In this document: in pieces, positions 5,443 through 54,133 of the stretch
How the letters are laid out: each line of letters opens with the position of its first letter
Numbering within the stretch: position 1 is the first letter of the stretch
DNA from: Candidatus Woesearchaeota archaeon
Lineage (GTDB): Archaea > Nanobdellota > Nanobdellia > Woesearchaeales > UBA9642
Reading direction: 5' to 3'
DNA: 64,000 nt
Assembly: GCA_026002815.1 (NCBI GenBank)
Contig: BPGB01000010.1
Span: 1-64,000, forward strand
Translations under genes and position numbers: made by a program
The notes under the pieces: generated by a model
Told to the model about the DNA's origin: nothing
What the model saw: only the letters and a program-made list of their open reading frames with translations
The model's database searches: none

Positions 5443-6473
5443 ACATAATAGATTTAATAGAAATAAAAGATTATATAAAAAGTAAAGGACTAACAGAAGA
5501 ACATATATTTAAAAGAATATTAAATATTGAAAATAAAAATCTTGATGGTTATAGAGAATATAGTATGTTTAATATAGAAGATACACCAAGTCAGTTTATT
5601 TACTGGAATGATTTTTTTAATGAGTATAGATTTAAAGATTTTTCATCAGGAAAAGAAGGCGATATTATAGATTATGTCGCCTATAAATATTTTGAAGGAA
5701 ATAAAACAGATGCAAAGAAAGCAATAATGAATATATGTGATGAAATAGTAAATAATAAGATATCGATTAAATTAGATAACAAAAACAAAGATTCAATTGA
5801 ATACAAATTAAAGAAATCAAAACTAGATAAAATAAATTCCTTAAAAATTTTAGGATTTGCTGATAAGTATTACAATAACAAAAAAGATTTATACTTCGTA
5901 GAAGAATTAAAAATACATCCAAAAATAATAAAAGAATTTGGAGTACTAACAGTAATAGATGAAGATAGAACAAAATTCCTATATGTAGATGCTGATGGTA
6001 CCTTTTGCCAAATATATGATCCTTTTGCAGATAATAAGATGTTTAAATTCTATAACATAAGTTCATTTAAAATGGATTCATTACCATTTGGTTTTAAAGC
6101 AAAAATAAATAGTATGAATAGTATTAAGAATATATACATATGCTCTTCAATTAAGGATATGTTATGTTTAAATAATCATTTCTATATAAATTACATGCTA
6201 TATAACTTAGCAGTCACTTACTTAAATGAAAGAGTTATTGACGAAAGAAATATACATGATATTATGAAAAAGTATAATTTATTTGTTATATTTGATGGAG
6301 ATGAGACTGGATTAAAAATATCTTCAGAAATAAAGAAGATAAGCAAAAAAATAAAAGTTATAGATGTAAGACAGTCATTCTATGATGAGGATACCATGAA
6401 ATATAAAGATATTGCTGAGATGCAGCAAGACAGAAAAGATTTAAATAAACTAAAACTTGATTGCTATGTCTGA
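5439..6473 (+). CDS. DnaG-like primase (Toprim), zinc-less N-terminus
   Basis: Primase that would lay down RNA primers for PolB. Seen: the Toprim Asp motif LFVIFDGDETGLKIS (DGDETG at 286-291) and a downstream KYKDIAEMQQ (about 321-331) in the place of the family's 'KD.aE'. The N-terminal block QFIYWNDFFNEYRFKDFSSGKEGDIIDYVAYKY (about 52-84, shown in part) matches the CHC2 primase finger fold ('..F.s...GDiidfv') but has no Cys/His ligands. The strand that should carry the first Toprim Glu reads IYICSSIKDMLCL (about 232-244), with Ser where Glu is expected. Either another residue takes the Glu role or the activity is altered. Length 344 aa suits a phage primase. The start overlaps the previous stop. 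Confidence 0.75.
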   Translation: MNIIDLIEIKDYIKSKGLTEEHIFKRILNIENKNLDGYREYSMFNIEDTPSQFIYWNDFFNEYRFKDFSSGKEGDIIDYVAYKYFEGNKTDAKKAIMNICDEIVNNKISIKLDNKNKDSIEYKLKKSKLDKINSLKILGFADKYYNNKKDLYFVEELKIHPKIIKEFGVLTVIDEDRTKFLYVDADGTFCQIYDPFADNKMFKFYNISSFKMDSLPFGFKAKINSMNSIKNIYICSSIKDMLCLNNHFYINYMLYNLAVTYLNERVIDERNIHDIMKKYNLFVIFDGDETGLKISSEIKKISKKIKVIDVRQSFYDEDTMKYKDIAEMQQDRKDLNKLKLDCYV

Positions 6474-7548
6474 ACTAAATTTCGATTGTGAAAAAGGTTA
6501 TATGATAACAAATAAAGATAATACTATAAATTTGAATAAGTATAATGAGACTGTTCGTTTACATAGTTTATATAGCTCAGATGATATCCGTAGCGACATA
6601 GTTACACTTATATTACTACCATATTTTTGTAAAGCAGATACAACTTATTACGATTATTGCCTATCATCTGAGAATTATGATAAAGGATTACTGCTCTGTA
6701 AAGCAACTCATATTATTAAAAACGGAAATGTATATTATAGTGGTACAATAAAAAATGATGAAACTAATTCGTTAGTAGTTCTTGATTTTATGTATAAAAA
6801 CAAAAATACTAACAATGATAAAATATTTGATTCGTTATCAAACGGATCTATATTCCTTGATAGTATATATAATATCAGTTCTTCTTCCATCCTTACAATA
6901 ATAGTAAGTAAAATAGAAAGTGATTTATATAATATAAAACTTCTTTTATTAGAAAAGAACCAAGAATTCAATCAAGTATTAAGAGCTATTAATAATTGTA
7001 AATATGATAAACTTCCGAATAGGTATGTTTTATCTATATTATCTTTCTATAACATTCTATACACTTATAATTCTATTACAAAAGAAACGAATAAGCCAAG
7101 TTTAAGTAAAGAACTTTCAAATACGATTAAAACGATGGTAGAAATTGTATCAAATGTTGAAAAAGATAATGAAATAGACTTTCTTAAAAGGCTATACATA
7201 ATCGTTTCATTACTATCTAAACACAAGTATCCTATTCAAAAGAACGACAATAGTATAAATATATATGATTATTTTTACTCGAATATAAATATAACAAATA
7301 CTTCAGATCTTGTCACCAATGAAATAAATAAGCACGCTTTAAGAAATTTAAATATACATAAGGATGATATCGATATAGCAGAAATTTTATTCAAAAAAGG
7401 AAATGTTAGTTTGTTTGAGCGTATAAGAGAGTTTAATGCTATAGATGTTGACGAAGAGTTTCTAAGATCAATAAATTTTTATGAGTATCCTTTTGAAGTT
7501 TTTACATTAGAAGGAGAACTCGTCAACCAAAAATATCTAATAAAATGA
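6466..7548 (+). CDS. hypothetical protein between primase and DNA polymerase
   Basis: Not recognised; 360 residues from ATG 6466 (MSELNFDCEKGYMITNKD). An in-frame TTG at 6457 is possible, but the ATG overlapping the primase stop is the better start. The N-terminal half looks beta-rich with short Asn/Asp loops. From about residue 180 the protein is helical (SILSFYNILYTYNSITKE..SKELSNTIKTMVEIVS). There are no catalytic motifs and no membrane helix. It is coupled to PolB by an ATGA overlap. The tight packing between primase and polymerase suggests a replisome accessory role, which is unproven. Confidence 0.6.
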   Translation: MSELNFDCEKGYMITNKDNTINLNKYNETVRLHSLYSSDDIRSDIVTLILLPYFCKADTTYYDYCLSSENYDKGLLLCKATHIIKNGNVYYSGTIKNDETNSLVVLDFMYKNKNTNNDKIFDSLSNGSIFLDSIYNISSSSILTIIVSKIESDLYNIKLLLLEKNQEFNQVLRAINNCKYDKLPNRYVLSILSFYNILYTYNSITKETNKPSLSKELSNTIKTMVEIVSNVEKDNEIDFLKRLYIIVSLLSKHKYPIQKNDNSINIYDYFYSNINITNTSDLVTNEINKHALRNLNIHKDDIDIAEILFKKGNVSLFERIREFNAIDVDEEFLRSINFYEYPFEVFTLEGELVNQKYLIK

Positions 7549-9614
7549 AAAAAGATTTTTTTATTCATGACATAGAAATTTATAATGATATGTCTTTTGC
7601 TATTTATAAAAAAGTGAAAGAGGACAAGATAATATATTTTGATTTAGTGAAAGATAAATCAAAACATAAAGCATTCTTTGAAAAGAATTTTCTAATCGAT
7701 AAAAACTATTTAGTTGGTTTTAATAACTGGTCTTTTGATATACCTGTAATCATCACTTTTAATGAAATAAATACTAATACTATAGATCGATTAAAAGAGA
7801 TTGTTAGTTTTATAATTGATTTGCCAAGAGATTGGTCATATAAGAAAGTTATAATTGAGACTTTTAACAAATTTATGAAAAAAGATAAGTCAAGATTTTT
7901 ATATAAACATTATATCTCTTCACTAAACGTCATTGACCTATATAAAATGAACAAATGGGATGATGATAGTAGAAGAGCATCATTAAAATGGATTGCAGCT
8001 AATATGAACTCTAGTAATATAAAAGAGACACCGTATGATTTTAACGATAACATAAAAGACTCAGAGCAAAAGATACAGGAATGTATAGAGTATTGTATAA
8101 ATGATGTTTATGAAACTGAGAAAATTCTCATTAGAAATAGGGAAGATATAAAAATGAGAATAGAGTTGAATAACCTTCTGAACGAAGGAAAAGTACCAAA
8201 CAGTTTTCTGTCATTATCTAATACAGCTATTGGTTCCAAAATCATTCTTGATGAAATTGTTAAAATAAAAAATAAGTCTATAAAGCAGATAAAGGCAGAA
8301 GCAAAGAAAGTTGAATATATATTCGATACCTGGAAAGATATAATATTTGATAATGTTAAAGAATATCTGACAAATAATAGAGAACTACATAATATATTGA
8401 AGAGTTTTACTAATGGAATTTTACATAGAAATAAGGAATATAGTATAGAATTTAAGTTTGAAAATACATTAACGAAAGAAACATTTTCAGACATAAAATT
8501 GGCAAAAGGAGGTGGACATGGATTACTATCGCCTGGAATGGTATACAGTAGCTCAGATACAATCATTCTGGATTTTGATGTAGCTTCCTACTATCCTAGT
8601 ATAGTTTTATCATATGGTTTATTTCCAAGGAATATAGGAGAAGAATTCAAAGAAGTTTATAAAAATATTAGGGATAAAAGATTTAAATATCCAAAGGGAC
8701 ATGCATTAAACAAAGCATATAAAGATGCCCTAAACTCTATAGTAGGTCTTTCAAATATGAACGCTAGTGTATTCTTTGACCCTAGTTTCTTTTTCAAAGT
8801 AACAATAAACGGTCAGCTAATGCTAACTATACTAATATATGAACTATCAAAAAATATTCGATTAGACTTAATACAACTAAATACTGATGGTGCCACTATC
8901 AAGCTATTAAAAGAAGATAGAGGGAAAGCAGAAAGAATATTTGATTGGTGGCAAAGAACATTTATGATATCTCTCGAATTTGTAGAATATAGAAAAATGC
9001 TTCTTGAGCATGTTAATAGTTATATCGCCGAATATAAAATTGCAGATTATTCGGATGATATATATGATAAAGGAATTGAGTATGTTAATCCTAAAACAAG
9101 AGAGGTATTCAAACTAAAATGTAAAGGTAGTTTTGTTTTTGATGACAATGATATCGAATTACATAAGAATAATAGCGCAAGAATTATACCGAAAGCAATA
9201 GCCAACTATTATTTTAAAGGAATACCTGTAACCGAAACTATATTAAGTGAAGAAAATATAGAGTTGTTTTTGTGTTATCAAAGAATCAATTCGGATACAG
9301 AATTGCTCTATATAAATGCAGAAGATTACCTAAAAGGTGCTGGATTAGATATAGCAAAAATATTTAAACATAAAGTAATAAGATACGTATACACGAATGT
9401 AAAAGATAATGCTGTGGTAATATTTAGGTCTTCATCGAGCGGTGCTAAGATTCTTGATAAAGAATCTAAATTTGTGTATATTTGCAATGATATTAGAGAT
9501 AAAGAAAATATAAAAAGAATGATTGATAGGAAACAATATATAATGAAAGCAAACCAGTTAATATCGAAAATTAATGTTAATACAAATAATATGTTCAACC
9601 TTTTTAATTTGTAG
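7545..9614 (+). CDS. family B DNA polymerase with 3'-5' exonuclease
   Basis: Replicative DNA polymerase. The exonuclease domain has Exo I FIHDIEIYND (Asp9, Glu11), Exo II VGFNNWSFD (57-65) and Exo III YCINDVYE (183-190), so proofreading looks intact. A GGGHG segment (322-326) matches the glycine motif before the palm in phage PolBs. Palm motif A is LDFDVASYYPSIV (Asp344), motif B KAYKDALNSIVGLSN (about 390-404), and motif C QLNTDGATI (Thr447-Asp448-Gly449). Motif C is the minimal 'TDG' form, not YGDTD, as in several small phage PolBs. No terminal-protein region is evident. 689 aa is compact for the family. The start overlaps the previous stop (ATGA). Confidence 0.9.
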   Translation: MKKDFFIHDIEIYNDMSFAIYKKVKEDKIIYFDLVKDKSKHKAFFEKNFLIDKNYLVGFNNWSFDIPVIITFNEINTNTIDRLKEIVSFIIDLPRDWSYKKVIIETFNKFMKKDKSRFLYKHYISSLNVIDLYKMNKWDDDSRRASLKWIAANMNSSNIKETPYDFNDNIKDSEQKIQECIEYCINDVYETEKILIRNREDIKMRIELNNLLNEGKVPNSFLSLSNTAIGSKIILDEIVKIKNKSIKQIKAEAKKVEYIFDTWKDIIFDNVKEYLTNNRELHNILKSFTNGILHRNKEYSIEFKFENTLTKETFSDIKLAKGGGHGLLSPGMVYSSSDTIILDFDVASYYPSIVLSYGLFPRNIGEEFKEVYKNIRDKRFKYPKGHALNKAYKDALNSIVGLSNMNASVFFDPSFFFKVTINGQLMLTILIYELSKNIRLDLIQLNTDGATIKLLKEDRGKAERIFDWWQRTFMISLEFVEYRKMLLEHVNSYIAEYKIADYSDDIYDKGIEYVNPKTREVFKLKCKGSFVFDDNDIELHKNNSARIIPKAIANYYFKGIPVTETILSEENIELFLCYQRINSDTELLYINAEDYLKGAGLDIAKIFKHKVIRYVYTNVKDNAVVIFRSSSSGAKILDKESKFVYICNDIRDKENIKRMIDRKQYIMKANQLISKINVNTNNMFNLFNL

Positions 9615-9617
9615 TCT

Positions 9618-10031
9618 ATGAGCAACACATTGAATGATTATCAGGAAATGTTATTATTTGAGTATTTGACTTATAAAGAAATTGGAAACAAGAAAATGAA
9701 TGATGAGAAGTATAATGAAATCCGAGAATTAGAGCATAATATGGATATAGTAAAAGAAGTCGTTGTCAAATATAGTGAGCAATATCCGCCCTTACTTTTG
9801 AAATATGCAAAGGATGAAGTAATCAAAAACCCGGACATCTTTCATTGGGGATGGTACGGAGCTTCTATACCGCGATATGCTCCGGAGCTATTGGAAATAT
9901 ATCCAAATAAATTCAATTGGAAATTGTTCGAATGGGCAGTAAAAGAATATTGCCCTGAATATATGAAATTCAAACCAAAAACAAATGAACAAAATGACAA
10001 AGGAAATATTCAATATGGATGTCATCTATAA
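9618..10031 (+). CDS. small hypothetical protein after DNA polymerase
   Basis: Not recognised; 137 residues, highly charged. The N-terminal half is helical (NDYQEMLLFEYLTYKEIGNK..). The C-terminal half contains a Trp/Pro-rich segment (DIFHWGWYGASIPRYAPELLEIYP..FNWKLFEWAVKEYCPEYM) that repeats the pattern W..x-Y-x-PE-x-L/Y and may be two related short helical repeats. The start ATG follows the polymerase stop by three bases (TAG TCT ATG). It is likely an early accessory or host-takeover protein, judging by its place downstream of the replication block. Confidence 0.6.
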   Translation: MSNTLNDYQEMLLFEYLTYKEIGNKKMNDEKYNEIRELEHNMDIVKEVVVKYSEQYPPLLLKYAKDEVIKNPDIFHWGWYGASIPRYAPELLEIYPNKFNWKLFEWAVKEYCPEYMKFKPKTNEQNDKGNIQYGCHL

Positions 10032-10453: not shown

Positions 10454-10538
10454 TACACATAAACTTGTTAGAAAGTATATATGAAAAATTAATTAAAAAT
10501 GATAGAAAAATAATGACATATTAAGAATTTTGGAATAT

Positions 10539-10636
10539 GGTCGCAGGAGTTTAGGCGACCTAACGGACGCAGAGGCAGAGGTTACGAAGCCAACGAAGCG
10601 TCTAAAATCCGAAATGTCATCATTTGGCATTAAGAT
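10539..10636 (+). ncRNA. omega-RNA-like structured 3' end, shell copy 1
   Basis: Three nested or sequential hairpins are visible. GGTCGC (10539-10544) pairs with GCGACC (10555-10560). GACGC (10566-10570) pairs with GCGTC (10598-10602). AAATG (10612-10616) pairs with CATTT (10621-10625) across a TCAT loop. In characterised IS200/IS605 elements the scaffold of the guide RNA used by TnpB comes from exactly this place, the 3' end of tnpB plus the right end. Bases just downstream would be the guide. Function here is inference. Confidence 0.5.
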
Positions 10637-10640
10637 TTAG
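10539..10640 (+). pseudogene. remnant of the tnpB C-terminus
   Basis: Reading in the tnpB frame gives the last 33 codons of the intact copy (GRRSLGDLTDAEAEV...SFGIKI) followed by TAG instead of TAA. Everything upstream of the Gly-Arg-Arg codons is missing. It was probably kept for its RNA structure and not for protein. Confidence 0.7.
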
Positions 10641-10644
10641 AACT

Positions 10645-10827
10645 ATGATAGCATTACTAGAACATAGGCCATTAGAAAAAAGACTTAACATATATAAGAT
10701 CTTGAATAGTAATTATAATTCAAATAAAATGAATATAATTAAAAGAATATTGGATTATAAATTTGATAAAAAGAATACAATAGTTTTTGATAAGTTTTTA
10801 AATAAGTATATAATCATAGAAATTTAG
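10645..10827 (+). CDS. small hypothetical protein downstream of the shell element
   Basis: Not recognised; 60 residues from ATG 10645 (MIALLEHRPLEKRLNIYKIL). A TTG further upstream would start inside the mobile element and is unlikely. The ATG follows TTTAGAACT, a one-base variant of the AAAACT leader seen before other genes. Basic, helical and Ile/Asn/Lys-rich, with no motif. It lies between the shell and the sigma-factor gene. Confidence 0.5.
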   Translation: MIALLEHRPLEKRLNIYKILNSNYNSNKMNIIKRILDYKFDKKNTIVFDKFLNKYIIIEI

Positions 10828-10859: not shown

Positions 10860-11825
10860 ATGAATAGAAAATATATATTCGGTAAAAAAAGCTCAGGAAG
10901 TTATATAACTTCTGATATAGGTATAGAACAAAGCTTGTACGAATATATGAAGTTTGTTAAAAAATACAAAGCTTTGTCAGCTAAAGAACAAATAGAACTG
11001 ATAGAAAAATATCACAAAAACAGTACATCTGAGTCGGAAAAGAAAAAAATACTGGATGCAATCATTTACTCAAATCAAAGAATGGTTATATCGATTGTGA
11101 AAAGAGAGATATCAATAAATCATACAAATGGAAAAGCTGGTTTATATCTGATGGATTATATACAAGAAGCAAATATTGGATTATTAAAAGCATTCGAAAA
11201 ATATAAAACAGAATATAATGTCCTATTTTATACTTATGCAACATATTGGATTAGACACTATTTAAATGTGTTCATGAACACAGTCGTAGAAGAAAATAAA
11301 ATCATACCAATGACGTTCAAGAAAAAAATAAATACTCTTGTTGCTTACATAGAAGAAAAGCTTTCTAAGAATATAATACCTTCATCAGAGGAGATAATAA
11401 AAAAATCAAAAATTAATAAGCAAGAATACTCAATACTCCAACCATATATCTTAGAAATATATACCGATTACTCAATAAACCCACATGAAAAACCATATCT
11501 GTTAGAAAGTTACATTTTAATAAACGCATTAAAAATTAATCCTATATTTTGGAATTACATTATAGAATCTAATAATAGATATAAAACACAAGAATACGAA
11601 AAGAATGTATACAATATACATAAAGATAGAATATCCTGGGATAAAGAAAAAGCTATAATAGACCTTTTAAAAGGGAGTAGAATGAATAATAAATATATAG
11701 AAGTTATTAAAAAAATAATGAGAGATGAAAAGGTTGACCCTAAAATGAAATATATAGCAATAAAACAAATAAAAAGAAATAAGTTTCTTTATGAAGCAAT
11801 AAGGAAGATACTTAAAAATGTTTAA
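10860..11825 (+). CDS. phage sigma-70-family factor
   Basis: Sigma-like protein that would direct a multisubunit RNA polymerase to phage promoters. Region 2 is clear. IIYSNQRMVISIVKREI (about 68-84) corresponds to 2.1. LMDYIQEANIGLLKAFEKYK (97-116) matches the 'LDLIQEGNiGLmrAvdkfd' core-binding segment. The segment FYTYATYWIRHYLN (123-136) matches the -10-reading 'FSTYAtwWIRqai'. A region-3-like stretch follows (EEKLSKNIIPSSEEIIKKSKINKQEY). Region 4 (the -35 helix-turn-helix) is not recognisable; the C-terminal 100 residues are basic helices. No start leader resembling those of other genes is present, but the inverted repeat at 10839-10854 is adjacent. The partner polymerase could be the host core or a phage one. 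Confidence 0.8.
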   Translation: MNRKYIFGKKSSGSYITSDIGIEQSLYEYMKFVKKYKALSAKEQIELIEKYHKNSTSESEKKKILDAIIYSNQRMVISIVKREISINHTNGKAGLYLMDYIQEANIGLLKAFEKYKTEYNVLFYTYATYWIRHYLNVFMNTVVEENKIIPMTFKKKINTLVAYIEEKLSKNIIPSSEEIIKKSKINKQEYSILQPYILEIYTDYSINPHEKPYLLESYILINALKINPIFWNYIIESNNRYKTQEYEKNVYNIHKDRISWDKEKAIIDLLKGSRMNNKYIEVIKKIMRDEKVDPKMKYIAIKQIKRNKFLYEAIRKILKNV

Positions 11826-32500: not shown

Positions 32501-35500
32501 GATTTGTTTTATTATCAAATAATGAATTACTTAATGTTAGTGGATTATTCCTTGCAATTAATGGTAATAATAATGTGGTTTTTAAACCATTACTTTCACC
32601 AATAGGTATTCCATATGCAGAGAAAGATGTAGCAGCTCTTAAATATTTTGATACATCCTTACTTATTTCGCTTATATTTATAGGTATTATTTGATATCCG
32701 TCTGCAAATATGTTTGATATAACACCACCAAATGGTACAGAAGATGATATCTTTTCTTTATCCCTGACTTCTTTGTTTAATGTTTCTATATTATTAGATG
32801 TGTTATTATATAGCATTACTTTCTGTTGTTTGGAAACATTTATGCTTTTTGTTCTAGTCACAGATTCAAAAATATAAAAAACATTTTCAATTAATCTTTC
32901 AGTGTAATTAAAACGAACTCTCTCATTTGAGTTATTTAAATTAATTTCGCCTGGCTTGCTTTTTATTATATTATTTCTTACTATGAAATCATATTTTAAA
33001 GTTTCATTATTAAGACTTACCGATATAATACATGCTTTAAACGCAGAAACGACATATTGAGTTATTAAATCAATATCATCTATATCTCCTATCTCGCTTT
33101 TTAAAACATCAACATCTAATAAGGAATTTGATAAATTAGTATATAAATTAGGGTTTTCTTTTACACCAGCTTCTGAATCTTTAATATACTTATTAAACAC
33201 ATTAACAAACTCTTCTATATTTGATGACTCTTCTGATGCTTTGATTATAGCATTACTTATGTATTCCAGATATTTATATAAGCTATTTCTTATGTTAAGT
33301 AAATTTACATTATTTATATTTATATAATCTAACTGATTAACATCAATATAATACTGCTCATTTATAGCTTCTCCAGTTCCGTAAAATAATCTACTTCCAA
33401 AAGCCATCGTTGTTGAACGAAACAATTCATCTAATTTTATGTATATAGCATCGATAGAAGAATTAAATATTGTATAAGCATCAATTAAAGCAAGAGCTGG
33501 ATCCTTGTATCTTGTTGGATTATTTTCTTTTATGATATCAGCTATAACTTTAATAATAATATTTTTATCTTTATGATTTCCATTATCCTTATATCTTTCG
33601 TATAATATCTTTAAGAGCATTAATTTATGATAAAAACTATTAATTTTCTTTGAGTTTAAAAATATTCTTTCTCTATATTTATTATTCAATATGTTATCCC
33701 CAAATGACACAACAGGATGCTCTGTATCATCCGTAAGCATTGGATTAACATATTGATGTTTAGATAATTTTGAAATAGCGTTTACAATGCTCCTATAAAA
33801 GATATTATCTACTTTCGACTTTGATAAAAAATCACTATTTTGAACATAAAACATATAAATTAATGCAAGCTTAGGAGATAATAAATTATTGCTATCTTTG
33901 GAAAAATAATTAATTGTTTTAGTAAAATCTTTAAAAATATCAAAGTATATTTCCGCATCTCTCTTATCTTTATTAGATAAGTAATCAGGATTACCATGTA
34001 TAGATTTTTGTAAAAACATTGTTAATTCTGCTAATGTTGATTTACCTGACATGTTAAGAAATGTGTTAATTAAAAACATAGATTCTTCATCAAACAATGT
34101 CTCAGATTCATTTATATCAACTAGGTCCCCATTATTCATCAATTCTTCTTTTTGTACTTCTTCAAACTCTTCATCTATTTCAACTGTAGTTTCCTTATCC
34201 TTTACAAATTCAGGTAAAAATAATGATATGGATTCCTTTAAATTTTTAAAAATGTACGAATCTATTGTTTTATCATTTTTAACTTTTTCATAATGCTCGT
34301 CTATTATTTTTTCAAGGTCAGATATTTTTACTGATTTTACATTATTTTCTACTAATATTTGAAGAAAACCTTTATCTAAAGTAATACACAACTTATTTAT
34401 TAAATATATTGTTTTTTTATCAAATTCTACTGTTCTAAAAATTATATCATTTTTCTTCTTTATATAACCTAATATATTGTCTATTTCTTTAATATATTCA
34501 TCTATTAAATCATATATTTCTTTCGAATTTGAAAATGACTCTCTGAGCTGTTCAACAATACTCCTAATATAAAATAATTTAAATAAATTCGAATATGCGT
34601 CTATATTATCTATAACATCGTTTGAAAACATGCTAAGCTCATCTACCTCAAGATTTTCAATTCTATCTAAATACTTTTTAGCGTATACCTTTAAATCGAT
34701 AGGGTTTCCTAAATTTATAGTTTTCCCAGATAGAATGTCACTTACAATGTTTAACGATTTATTAATAGGTTGATTAATATTAAACAATTTAAAGACACCA
34801 TATTTAGATTTAGAAAAATCACCCTGAATATCTTTGGATGATATAGATTCAATCTTTTCATTAATGACCTTATCATTATTTTCTATTACTACATTTATAT
34901 CATCAAAAAGAAATAAAAATCTTTCACCATCAGACACAGATTCTAATGTTTGTTTAGAATCAGGTGTAGGAGTAGTTTCTCCTGCGGATGCATCTTTAAA
35001 TAAAATATAACCAGCCATTCCTTTAAATGGAGACTTATAATCCTTCCTATTAATTAATTCTAATTCAATATCCGATAATATTCTACCATTAGCATCTTTG
35101 GTATATTTTATTTTAGTTTGTACAATATATGTATTTTTTATACCTGCTTTTTTTAATATTTTATCATCTAAGTTTTCAAAATAGAAAATATCGCTTCTAG
35201 TATCATTCATAGGATCATAACCTATAAATACTCCTTCTTCCTCTCCCTGTGGTATAATATTTTGTATGAAATTTAGGAAAAGTAATTTGTTCAGATTCTT
35301 TTTATTAATATTATATAAAACAGATGTTCCATATTTTTGATTTAATTTATCAGATTTGTTAAACCTATTACCCGTCCTATCACCAACTAAAAAACCAGCA
35401 TCAGAAAAAGATTTAAAAATGATCTTTTGACGTTGATCATTTTCAATGTTTGATAAAGAATTATGAATCATCGGAAATTCATTCTCTATGACTTTACTTT

Positions 35501-51267: not shown

Positions 51268-52158
51268 TTATTGCATTCCAGATTGCTGGGATTGTAAATC
51301 CATGATTAATCTTTCAAAGTATTTAGGATAACGTCCAACAAAGTCAACAAATTCTTCATATGATATGTCATACTCTCCACTAGAGGGTGCACTCTGCTGT
51401 TGAACATCTTGCTGTTCGCCTTCATATGATGCATTGTCACCCTCCAAAGTAGACCCACCCATATCAAATTTAGGCACCTCCATTACTCCCTTTTCAAAAT
51501 CTTCTGGTTTTAAATTTATTCTTTTAAGTATATAATTGCTATCTTCTTTGTCGTCTATTGTAGCAATCTTAAAATAAAGCTGCCTTCCTTGTTCGTCTTT
51601 ATATGGTAAGACGTAAAATTTCTCACCATTGCTATATTTAATTTCTTTTATAGCATCTAAATCTAGGTTATGATATTTATCCTTAAAGTTGTTTAATATA
51701 TAACTATCTAATCCTGGGAACGTTTTAGATAATTCTTTTATTTTTTTGATTTTATCGTCATCATCTCCTCCTCCATCATCAACATAATCAAGATCATTAA
51801 CCTCCATACCTAATTGTCCTTTAATAAGCTCTCTTGTATTGTTATACTTATCATATAGATTGTCTATGTCATTCATCACACTTTTTGCACTTTCACGACG
51901 AAGAATTCTATCTAATATGTCACCAACACTAAACAATCCACCATACTCATACTTTTCAATTTCCCCACCACGAAGTTTAGACATCACATTTTTGGCAAAT
52001 TGTGCCTTCTTCCTAATCTTAGGATCTTTAGATTTTAATCCTTTTTCAATACATTCCATAGTAACTTCACCTCCGCAATATTCACGGAAAGAGCCCACTG
52101 TACCTTTTTGCTTCATTTTATTGGTAGCTTCCTGTATCCATTTTTTATTTTCTTTCAT
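51268..52158 (-). CDS. probable virion/cargo protein (GTVGSFREYC-type)
   Basis: 296 residues. The N-terminal region WIQEATNKMKQKGTVGSFREYCGG..TMECIEKGLKSKDPKIRKKAQFAKN (about 7-58, quoted in outline) is a basic segment that I recall from structural proteins of crAss-like and related Bacteroidota phages. Acidic Asp-Gly-Gly-rich linkers follow, and a C-terminal SGEYDISYEEFVDFVGRYPKYFERLIMDL. GGEIEK (about 69-74) and KGQLGMEV (about 116-123) match motifs of the 1033-residue neighbour. The start lies after the stop/restart box left downstream of the shell element (TTTAAAACTATAAACTAATATG). A role in packing virion proteins or DNA is inference. Confidence 0.6.
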   Translation of the reverse strand: MKENKKWIQEATNKMKQKGTVGSFREYCGGEVTMECIEKGLKSKDPKIRKKAQFAKNVMSKLRGGEIEKYEYGGLFSVGDILDRILRRESAKSVMNDIDNLYDKYNNTRELIKGQLGMEVNDLDYVDDGGGDDDDKIKKIKELSKTFPGLDSYILNNFKDKYHNLDLDAIKEIKYSNGEKFYVLPYKDEQGRQLYFKIATIDDKEDSNYILKRINLKPEDFEKGVMEVPKFDMGGSTLEGDNASYEGEQQDVQQQSAPSSGEYDISYEEFVDFVGRYPKYFERLIMDLQSQQSGMQ

Positions 52159-52164
52159 ATTAGT

Positions 52165-52177
52165 TTATAGTTTTAAA
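52165..52177 (-). promoter_or_regulatory. TTTAAAACTATAA box before the 296-residue gene
   Basis: Read on the minus strand, the tnpB-remnant stop TAA runs into AACTATAAACTAATATG, the start of the next gene. The same box is found at 62734 and 63313 next to tail genes with no mobile element. It is a candidate initiation, coupling or promoter element of the phage. Confidence 0.45.
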
Positions 52178-52274
52178 TCTTAATACCAAATGATGACATT
52201 TCAGATTTTAGACGCTTCGTTGGCTTCGTAACCTCTGCCTCTACGTCCGTTAGGTCGCCTGAACTCCTGCGACC
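52177..52274 (-). ncRNA. omega-RNA-like structured 3' end, shell copy 2
   Basis: The hairpins of copy 1 are retained. GGTCGC/GCGACC has its only change in the loop, GACGT/GCGTC keeps a wobble pair, and AAATG/CATTT is unchanged. Retention of pairing while loop and linker bases vary suggests the RNA may matter. No transcript evidence is available from sequence alone. Confidence 0.45.
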
Positions 52275-52398
52275 ATATTCCAAAATTCTTAATATGTCAT
52301 TATTTTTCTATCATTTTTAATTAATTTTTCATAATACTTTCAAAATATAGTATTTTACGTATTGCCTTTTATATTGTTTCATCACTTATTTTATAGTT

Positions 52399-53568
52399 TT
52401 AAATCTTAATGCCAAATGATGACATTTCAGATTTTAGACGCTTCGTTGGCTTCGTAACCTCTGCCTCTGCGTCCGTTAGGTCGCCTAAACTCCTGCGACC
52501 TTCATTTAAAATATTCTGTGCTGCAAGTAAATCCCTTTGATTAACAACACCACAGGATTTACAAGTCCATTCTCTGTCAGATAGTTTCAAATCATCGTTT
52601 TTTGCTCCACACTTACAGGTTTTGCTGCTTGCAAAAAACCTATCTACTTTTATAACCTCTTTTCCATACCAATTACACTTGTATTCAAGTATTGACACAA
52701 ACTTACTCCAACTAACATCGCTTATAGCACCAGCCAAACAATGGTTTTTTAGCATACCATTGACATTTAGGTCTTCAATAAATATCCTATCGTAGTTATT
52801 TACTAAAAATGTGGTGTAATTGTGAAGAAACCAATTTCGTTGATTGGATATTTTCTGATGCAGGCGTGCTATTTTTAATCTACATCTTTCGTATCTGTGG
52901 CTGCCTTTTTGTTTTCTGGAAAGATGTCGTTGCAATCTTTGTAACTTCGCTTGGCTTTTGCGAAGAAACTTAGGATTGTCAATTTCTATTTCATCAGATT
53001 GTGTGGCAAAAGTTTTAATTCCTAAATCAATTCCTACTTCTTTATTAGTTTTTGTTTTAGGTGTTACTTCTGTTTCAATCAGGATAGAAGCAAAGTATTG
53101 TCCTGATGGATTTTTGCTGATGGTTACTGACATTAACTTGCCATCAGGTAATTCTCTGTCAATAACCATTCTTATCTTTCCTATCTTTTCCAATTGTATT
53201 TTGTTGCCTATTACTTTAAACTTTTGATTAGGTAATCTGAAAGAGTTTCTACCTTTTTTCTTTTTGAAAGAAGGGAATCCTATTTTCTTTTTTCTTGTTT
53301 TGCTGAAAAGTTGTTTCAGAAGTTGGTTGAAATCTATTTCCTTTTGTTGTATTGCTGCTGCACTGACTTCTTTCATCCATTCAAATTCTTTTCGTAATTC
53401 AGTGCTTGTCTTAAATTTGACATTAGGATTGGTTTCTTTATCATAGGTTCTGAATGTAGCAACCTGATAGTTCCAGAAGAAACGAACACATCCAAAAGTT
53501 TTATTTAATAAAACTTCCTGTGTTTTATTGGGATATATTCTGTATTTATATGCTCTTAGTATCTTCAT
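52399..53568 (-). CDS. tnpB: TnpB RNA-guided endonuclease
   Basis: 389 residues from ATG 53568; a TTG two codons upstream is less likely. The N-terminus MKILRAYKYRIYPNKTQ and GCVRFFWNYQ are classic TnpB. RuvC-like residues are all present: VGIDLGIKTF (Asp182), IFIEDLNVNGML (Glu265) and NQRDLLAAQNIL (Asp346). The zinc ribbon reads TCKCGAKND...WTCKSCG. Its first pair is CxC (318, 320), one residue short of the usual CxxC; the second pair is 336/339. In characterised relatives TnpB uses an omega RNA from the element's right end to cut DNA beside a short target-adjacent motif, so retaining the element. The gene sits in the virion operon between HNH and cargo genes. Confidence 0.95.
   Translation of the reverse strand: MKILRAYKYRIYPNKTQEVLLNKTFGCVRFFWNYQVATFRTYDKETNPNVKFKTSTELRKEFEWMKEVSAAAIQQKEIDFNQLLKQLFSKTRKKKIGFPSFKKKKGRNSFRLPNQKFKVIGNKIQLEKIGKIRMVIDRELPDGKLMSVTISKNPSGQYFASILIETEVTPKTKTNKEVGIDLGIKTFATQSDEIEIDNPKFLRKSQAKLQRLQRHLSRKQKGSHRYERCRLKIARLHQKISNQRNWFLHNYTTFLVNNYDRIFIEDLNVNGMLKNHCLAGAISDVSWSKFVSILEYKCNWYGKEVIKVDRFFASSKTCKCGAKNDDLKLSDREWTCKSCGVVNQRDLLAAQNILNEGRRSLGDLTDAEAEVTKPTKRLKSEMSSFGIKI
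52402..52500 (-). ncRNA. omega-RNA-like 3' end overlapping tnpB
   Basis: It overlaps the last 33 codons of tnpB. Hairpins: GGTCGC (52500-52495) with GCGACC (52484-52479); GACGC with GCGTC further in; AAATG/CATTT with an ATGA loop (52414-52427 on the plus strand). The RNA would read through to the box TTTAAAACTATAA, which would then be the guide or its start. This placement matches known omega RNAs; the ends are not determinable here. Confidence 0.55.
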
Positions 53569-53647
53569 TAACAATTCCCTTTATTATCATACAATATCGT
53601 GCCACATGTCTTGAATTATGTCAATATGTCATTATGTTTTGTTAACT

Positions 53648-54133
53648 TTAAGAATATTTCCAAAGGATCTCTGGAGCTAATTCTTCTATGATCTTAATGT
53701 TTCTTTCATAATCCAATAATGTTTTTCTCTTTTTTGGATTTTCCCATTTTTTATGACAACCTTCATGATCCAACCAATCTAAACAATGATATGTTATATT
53801 TCTTTCATCATAAATTAGTTCTGGTCTTCCGATTCTCTTACAATCACTTCTCGATATAATATGGGAATGAGAGAGTTTTATGATTGCTGATTCCTTCTTA
53901 CCACAACCACTACAAATCTTTTTGCGAGTATAGTCTATTTTCCTTAAAACAGACTTGTATTCTCTATCAATTAATTTTTGCTTATCTGACTTTTTTCTGA
54001 TCGTTTTCTTCTTTTTCTTCTTACCTGATCTAGAATTCAATCTGTCTTTGTTGTGTTTATAACACAGTTTATAAGTTTTATTTACAACATATGAGCTACC
54101 ACAAACTTTACAGATTAGATTTTTATTACTCAC
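53648..54133 (-). CDS. HNH endonuclease (free-standing, probable homing type)
   Basis: 161 residues from a GTG at 54133 (VSNKNLICKVCGSSYVVN). An N-terminal zinc knuckle CKVCG (about 8-12) is followed by a Lys-rich basic stretch (KKKKKKTIRKKS). Then comes an HNH core: CSGCGKKES (about 74-82), LSHSHIISRS (about 88-97), NITYHCLDWLDHEGCHKKWEN. The Cys pairs plus His-His and Asn-His match the C2C2-type HNH/NinG-like nucleases. It lies between a tail gene and tnpB. The start is preceded by ACTATAACTATAAAATT, related to the stop/restart box, so it too was inserted at an operon junction. A homing role is likely; a NinG-like recombination role is the alternative. Confidence 0.8.
   Translation of the reverse strand: MSNKNLICKVCGSSYVVNKTYKLCYKHNKDRLNSRSGKKKKKKTIRKKSDKQKLIDREYKSVLRKIDYTRKKICSGCGKKESAIIKLSHSHIISRSDCKRIGRPELIYDERNITYHCLDWLDHEGCHKKWENPKKRKTLLDYERNIKIIEELAPEILWKYS

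Follow-up and report, generated by a model that had tools for sequence, protein, structure and literature searches.

Related systems

The nearest described class to the elements reported here, short tnpB-less copies that we call shells, is that of the palindrome-associated transposable elements (PATEs) of Haloquadratum walsbyi, which are transposase-free, derive from IS605-type elements, tnpB-only ones included, by deletion of the core, and in some families were multiplied as units (PMC3119063). PATEs reside in archaeal chromosomes and the quoted tnpB-derived case is a 52-bp terminal remnant, whereas the shells keep a complete 108-nt scaffold, are found in phages and lie here beside an intact TnpB (PMC3119063). 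TnpB processes its own 3' end into an omegaRNA, the guide being taken from outside the element (PMC10278001), and cleaves next to a TAM (PMC10097598). In ISDra2 and AmaTnpB this RNA is made of the tnpB 3' end and the right end with a scaffold of about 106 nt, and its coding sequence lies in cis to tnpB, with tnpA as a further neighbour in ISDra2 (PMC10097598, PMC10278001). The TnpB of this study belongs to the same nuclease family with the same triad, and the same RNA architecture is predicted for it, but three scaffolds occur without the gene and no tnpA was found. TnpB genes are also known in Epsilon crAss-like phages (crAssE-Sib), again a crAss-like setting, and gene-less right-end copies are not known to be described for them (PMC11054128).

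The open-licence literature yielded no description of phages with TnpB right ends that lack the gene. Stand-alone omegaRNAs of IscB, with the guide RNA encoded apart from the nuclease, were reportedly described by Altae-Tran et al. in 2021; they concern IscB and not TnpB, and a bacterial chromosome and not a phage. What is added here, as read from sequence, are gene-less units that retain the entire predicted guide-RNA module and were multiplied as such; they occur in three phage groups, in some genomes together with their nuclease and in some without it.

The tnpB gene and its predicted RNA

The window, i.e. the whole stretch of DNA analysed (64,000 nt), represents contig C10 of a 26-contig, 1.7-Mb assembly that is about 82% complete. 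An earlier reading of the sequence alone had claimed one intact tnpB in it. This gene (52399-53568(-), ATG start at 53568) indeed encodes a 389-aa protein of the RNA-guided nuclease family, with Pfam domains PF01385, PF07282 and PF12323 (OrfB_IS605, Cas12f1-like_TNB and HTH_OrfB_IS605) well over their cut-offs and an intact RuvC triad (D181/E265/D346), so that the combination typical of TnpB (OMEGA) nucleases, OrfB_IS605 and a TNB zinc domain with the RuvC D-E-D triad, is present. Among natural homologues with an experimental structure, the best match is D. radiodurans TnpB (8h1j/8bf8, E 6e-69), and alignment to the solved TnpB structures spans almost the full length. Two features are unusual, a zinc site formed by a CxC pair and RDLLAA instead of RDxNAA; they are probably a lineage trait and not decay, since the phage TnpBs L028 and L029 have the same CxC pair plus RDILAA. 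An ORF adjoining the tnpB element (53648-54133(-)) shows, on visual inspection, pairs of cysteines and a stretch resembling HNH, and yields only a weak sub-threshold SieB match in Pfam.

The structured RNA expected of an OMEGA nuclease, which overlaps both the 3' end of tnpB and the right end, is likewise predicted by fold and covariation. The putative omegaRNA/reRNA scaffold is a block of 108 nt (GGTCGC..ACTAT, 52393-52500(-)), which is about the same length as the processed AmaTnpB scaffold of 106 nt (PMC10278001). Its three hairpins, noticed by the sequence-only reading as a preserved structured end, make up both the minimum-free-energy and the centroid fold predicted for the block in tnpB (z -3.9, none of 200 shuffles being as good). 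An Rfam scan of the window gave no match. Nine related phage tnpB right ends (~55% protein identity) have a GGACGY/GCGTCT stem and the ..ACTAT end in common. Compensatory changes in relatives support the predicted stems: double changes occur at three stem pairs in the relative L039, at 4 pairs (7 cells) among the nine tnpB ends and at 6 pairs (12 cells) in a set of right ends of which half are tnpB-less, with most stem pairs invariant and a shuffle control that ignores kinship. Covariation no better than chance, which that reading had named as a result that would speak against it, was thus not obtained.

Gene-less copies of the element

Two copies without the gene, keeping about 100 bases of its 3' end with one and three differences, had been claimed for the window. 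BLAST confirms both, the shared block being 108 nt long, and the counts were essentially right, with 3 differences to tnpB in shell A and 2 in shell B, one of the latter in the last 7 nt of the block. Shell A (52167-52341(-)) has a core at 52167-52328 consisting of a 54-nt left end and the 108-nt scaffold, beyond which its likeness to shell B extends out to 52341, while shell B (10471-10646(+)) has a core of the same composition at 10485-10646; both were delimited by BLAST and a model match. A search of the remaining assembly, which the sequence-only reading had proposed, revealed a third tnpB-less copy, shell C (G000:C16:15006-15167), with 2 differences in the block. Shells B (10471-10646) and A (52167-52341) are 96.6% identical, and the match of either one to the 3' end of tnpB covers 125-151 nt at ~91-94% identity, E being 1e-48 or lower (local BLAST), a similarity that far exceeds chance.

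When the three shells are aligned with the 3' end of tnpB, identity sets in at GGTCGC, where hairpin 1 has its first base, and ends after AACTAT. Upstream of this block the shells and tnpB diverge, yet the C-terminal tnpB frame remains open in the shells. The change from GACGC to GACGT in shell A leaves a G-U pair, the wobble that had been described, and GACGT is the common form among the nine related phage tnpB ends. The 54-nt left end is identical in A, B and C and is not present in the tnpB element apart from 13 nt (ATAATGACATATT, 53623-53635(-)), the sole left-end sequence that an exact motif scan finds in common; its 17-nt core occurs nowhere else within C10 or C16. As to a possible promoter in this left end, the Bacteroidota -7 motif has no convincing counterpart there, and none is proposed. 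Matches to the left end among the host bin's relatives (E 1e-5 to 7e-4) were rejected as AT-rich chance matches inside unrelated sequence.

Since the same left end and junction recur in all three shells, the sequences indicate that the gene-less shell itself was multiplied as a unit and that the copies do not represent three independent deletions. The resident tnpB copy is not their direct parent, nor are the shells simple truncations of it, because its left end matches theirs in 13 nt only. As in PATEs, the ends are shared with an IS605-type element (scaffold at the right end 97-98% identical, left end 13 nt) and the transposase gene is absent.

Genome context

The proposal of a crAss-like phage agrees with the gene content of two contigs. 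C16 carries crAss-like TerL and portal genes (PHROGs), its TerL matching crAss-like phages, and at its right end a probable capsid gene, judged by position and size; C10 encodes the ring proteins, ring 1 just under and ring 2 over the Pfam cut-off. The terminase, portal, probable capsid and ring proteins of Crassvirales are therefore distributed across both contigs, and because of this complementary content and the shared shells, C10 and C16 (64.5 and 27.8 kb) are probably parts of a single divergent genome of a crAss-like phage, about 92 kb long. Three giant ORFs of 3341, 4047 and 3381 aa are located at 13538-46045(-), the 3341-aa ORF being without a Pfam hit, and a Sigma-70 region 2 protein (10860-11825(+)) is encoded shortly downstream of shell B. 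Positions 6000-10000 of G000:C16 have a GC content of 42-54% against ~28% over the rest of the contig and are either an acquired segment or an assembly chimera.

In line with the earlier remark that no TnpA is visible, no Y1_Tnp domain (PF01797) was detected in the 1.7-Mb assembly, about 82% complete, and no Y1 TnpA in eight related phage records. Movement must consequently have used a transposase from elsewhere or predate its loss, as far as these records tell. In this respect the shells lack the available Y1 transposase of a PATE-like system, which bears on their movement and not on their being a derivative. A tnpA together with normal full-length copies elsewhere, which according to the sequence-only reading could reduce the shells to simple debris, was likewise not found: the assembly contains no further full-length tnpB element, and the one TnpB signal it gives besides comes from a C-terminal fragment on C11, which is unrelated. 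This 85-aa piece was rejected as shell parent, its right end being unrelated to that of the window. It lies in a degenerate IS605-type element on a second crAss-like phage contig (G000:C11:11160-12420; L009 about 7270-8420), in the order TnpA-like remnant (by eye, in reverse), GIY-YIG-like ORF and TnpB piece.

Gene-less right ends in other phages

A second phage with such copies is the 243-kb IMG/VR record 3300042560_001323, encoding a terminase and an RNA ligase. Its 11 related right ends comprise four intact tnpB copies, one truncated tnpB and six tnpB-less copies; three of the six have one junction, and their left end is related to that of the tnpB copies. Exact right-end motif searches of IMG/VR returned nothing or only L039, a one-off deletion in which codons 1-82 are joined to the right end and which cuts into stem 2. 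One right-end search of a Chryseobacterium phage with TnpB gave no extra copies.

The third group consists of cultured Bacillus Siophivirus phages. KKP_4047, 4048, 4049, 4050 and SIOphi have a gene-less copy of the KKP_4049 TnpB right end, a well conserved shell of 214 nt composed of the left end of the tnpB element, the last tnpB codons and the scaffold, so that both ends are shared with the tnpB element. It lies directly after TTTAT and interrupts an ORF. In phage Yucatan the shell site is uninterrupted (32683-32842), and the site at which KKP_4049 holds its tnpB element is likewise empty, TTTAT preceding it here too; the shells were accordingly inserted 3' of TTTAT with a clean empty site and no target duplication. 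KKP_4049 contains the tnpB element and the shell in the same phage. The shell is present in SIOphi, KKP_4047, 4048 and 4050, none of which belongs to the records with near-identical tnpB, and SPG24, BSP9, BSP18, BSP21 and phiNIT1 have the tnpB element and no complete shell. In SIOphi and KKP_4049, compared with KKP_4050 (L217 and L218 being SIOphi and KKP_4050), ~60 nt are lost just after the shell right end, which alters the would-be guide and retains the scaffold. Because the same type of gene-less copy was found in two unrelated phage groups, gene-less TnpB copies in phages look like a recurring, testable satellite and not random debris.

Origin and possible function of the shells

The shells are probably non-autonomous IS200/IS605-type derivatives that kept the complete omegaRNA unit and were multiplied in the phage, for which we propose movement by an outside Y1 transposase and loading by the resident TnpB. 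This reading draws on the anatomy of the shells, the junction common to three loci, the preserved fold of the RNA and the recurrence of this architecture in two further groups of phages. A left end would have been fused directly to the complete omegaRNA module (scaffold and flank guide) of a tnpB-only element, dropping the nuclease gene, and the resulting unit would then have been multiplied to three places in one crAss-like phage by the outside transposase. Read-through or leader transcription could yield a guide RNA from each shell, and the resident TnpB may load these RNAs and cut phage copies without a shell at that site.

Loading of shell RNA by this TnpB is chemically likely because the scaffolds are near-identical, and supply of the nuclease in trans, as the sequence-only reading had suggested, is plausible. 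Four cultured Bacillus phages keep the shell with no tnpB found in the genome, so it can be argued that a resident TnpB is not strictly required for shell persistence and that supply in trans need not be what keeps the shells.

A rather doubtful alternative is that the shells are simple debris, neutral termini left by internal deletion, in which the fold is preserved only as the copies are young. The window copies are 96-99% identical, leaving little time for decay, and the stem pairs that never vary, the one-off deletion in L039 and the shell-only Bacillus phages would all suit such an origin. Debris does not account for one junction at three loci, which points to multiplication of the gene-less form itself, likewise in the second phage; moreover, identity begins exactly at the scaffold boundary, and helix 1 of the second phage is 100% paired, tnpB-less copies included, although the copies differ.

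If the non-autonomous derivatives make working guides, the smallest TnpB-dependent mobile unit would be an RNA gene of about 160-220 bp, and phages would contain multi-guide TnpB systems overlooked by annotation because the units contain no gene. A further step, which we put forward only tentatively, is a split system with a single TnpB gene for several scattered guide-RNA units that lack the gene, every unit protecting its own site or homing to it; phages with TnpB could then spread or fix a large number of short elements simultaneously and cleave rival phage genomes in which these are missing. KKP_4049 (TnpB and shell), the SIOphi type (shell only), the SPG24 type (TnpB only) and Yucatan (both sites empty) form a natural test set for use in trans, homing and inter-phage exclusion.

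Insertion sites and flanking sequences

By analogy with TnpB biology (PMC10278001), the guide of the tnpB copy would be the 16 nt just beyond its right end (52377-52392(-)), and the corresponding positions are 52151-52166(-) for shell A and 10647-10662(+) for shell B. At 0-1 mismatches, the window offers no second target for the putative guide of shell A, of shell B or of the tnpB copy; the putative guide of C, which lies on the other contig, has a single match with 2 mismatches, as chance predicts.

The right ends of A, B and C lie 8, 0 and 10 nt upstream of a same-strand ATG. In shell A it is that of a 296-aa ORF (52158), while in shell B the last two scaffold bases AT together with G10647 form the ATG of a 60-aa ORF (10645-10827). 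This proximity in three of three cases is unlikely by chance (roughly 0.001), because only ~11% of intergenic position-orientation choices in C10 qualify by crude gene calls, survivorship and small numbers limiting its weight; the right end of L039 runs into an ATG as well. The shells might be kept because they lie between promoter and start codon of phage genes and influence these genes as structured leaders or as repression guides resembling those of TldRs. TldRs are nuclease-dead TnpB regulators that have lost the RuvC catalytic residues. Control of this kind is improbable, since the window TnpB retains its triad, the shell of the Bacillus phages lies inside an ORF that it disrupts, intergenic sites would be favoured by survivorship alone and no conserved target is known. 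That the shells are classic terminal-inverted-repeat MITEs moved by a DDE transposase, with borrowed TnpB sequence only, is highly improbable: their ends are partly complementary (AAATAATGACAT / ATGTCATCATTT, a duplex energy reached by 2.2% of shuffles), but the right half is the tnpB 3' end and no inverted repeat of the left half, A, B and C show no consistent target duplication and the Bacillus insertions have none.

For the non-autonomous derivatives in the window, left flanks ending in TAT suggest a candidate TAM and the boundaries. Empty sites for the window's shells were not found, the nearest IMG/VR TerL relatives being ~42% identical and none of those searched carrying the model, and the relatives of gene X (L041 and L042) are too distant to define the shell junction. 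The sequence following the tnpB right end (ATGAAACAATATAAAAGG, 52342-52392) is similar to the beginning of the 296-aa ORF that follows shell A (ATGAAAGAAAATAAAAAA, 52140-52166), which could be a duplication remnant or a coincidence between AT-rich starts. A paralogue exists of the gene downstream of shell C (L008:6219 versus L008:9179), and upstream of this paralogue CGTATATTTGTTATG resembles the joined flanks of shell C (CGTAT|AAAATTTGATATGG) and is a possible stand-in for its empty site.
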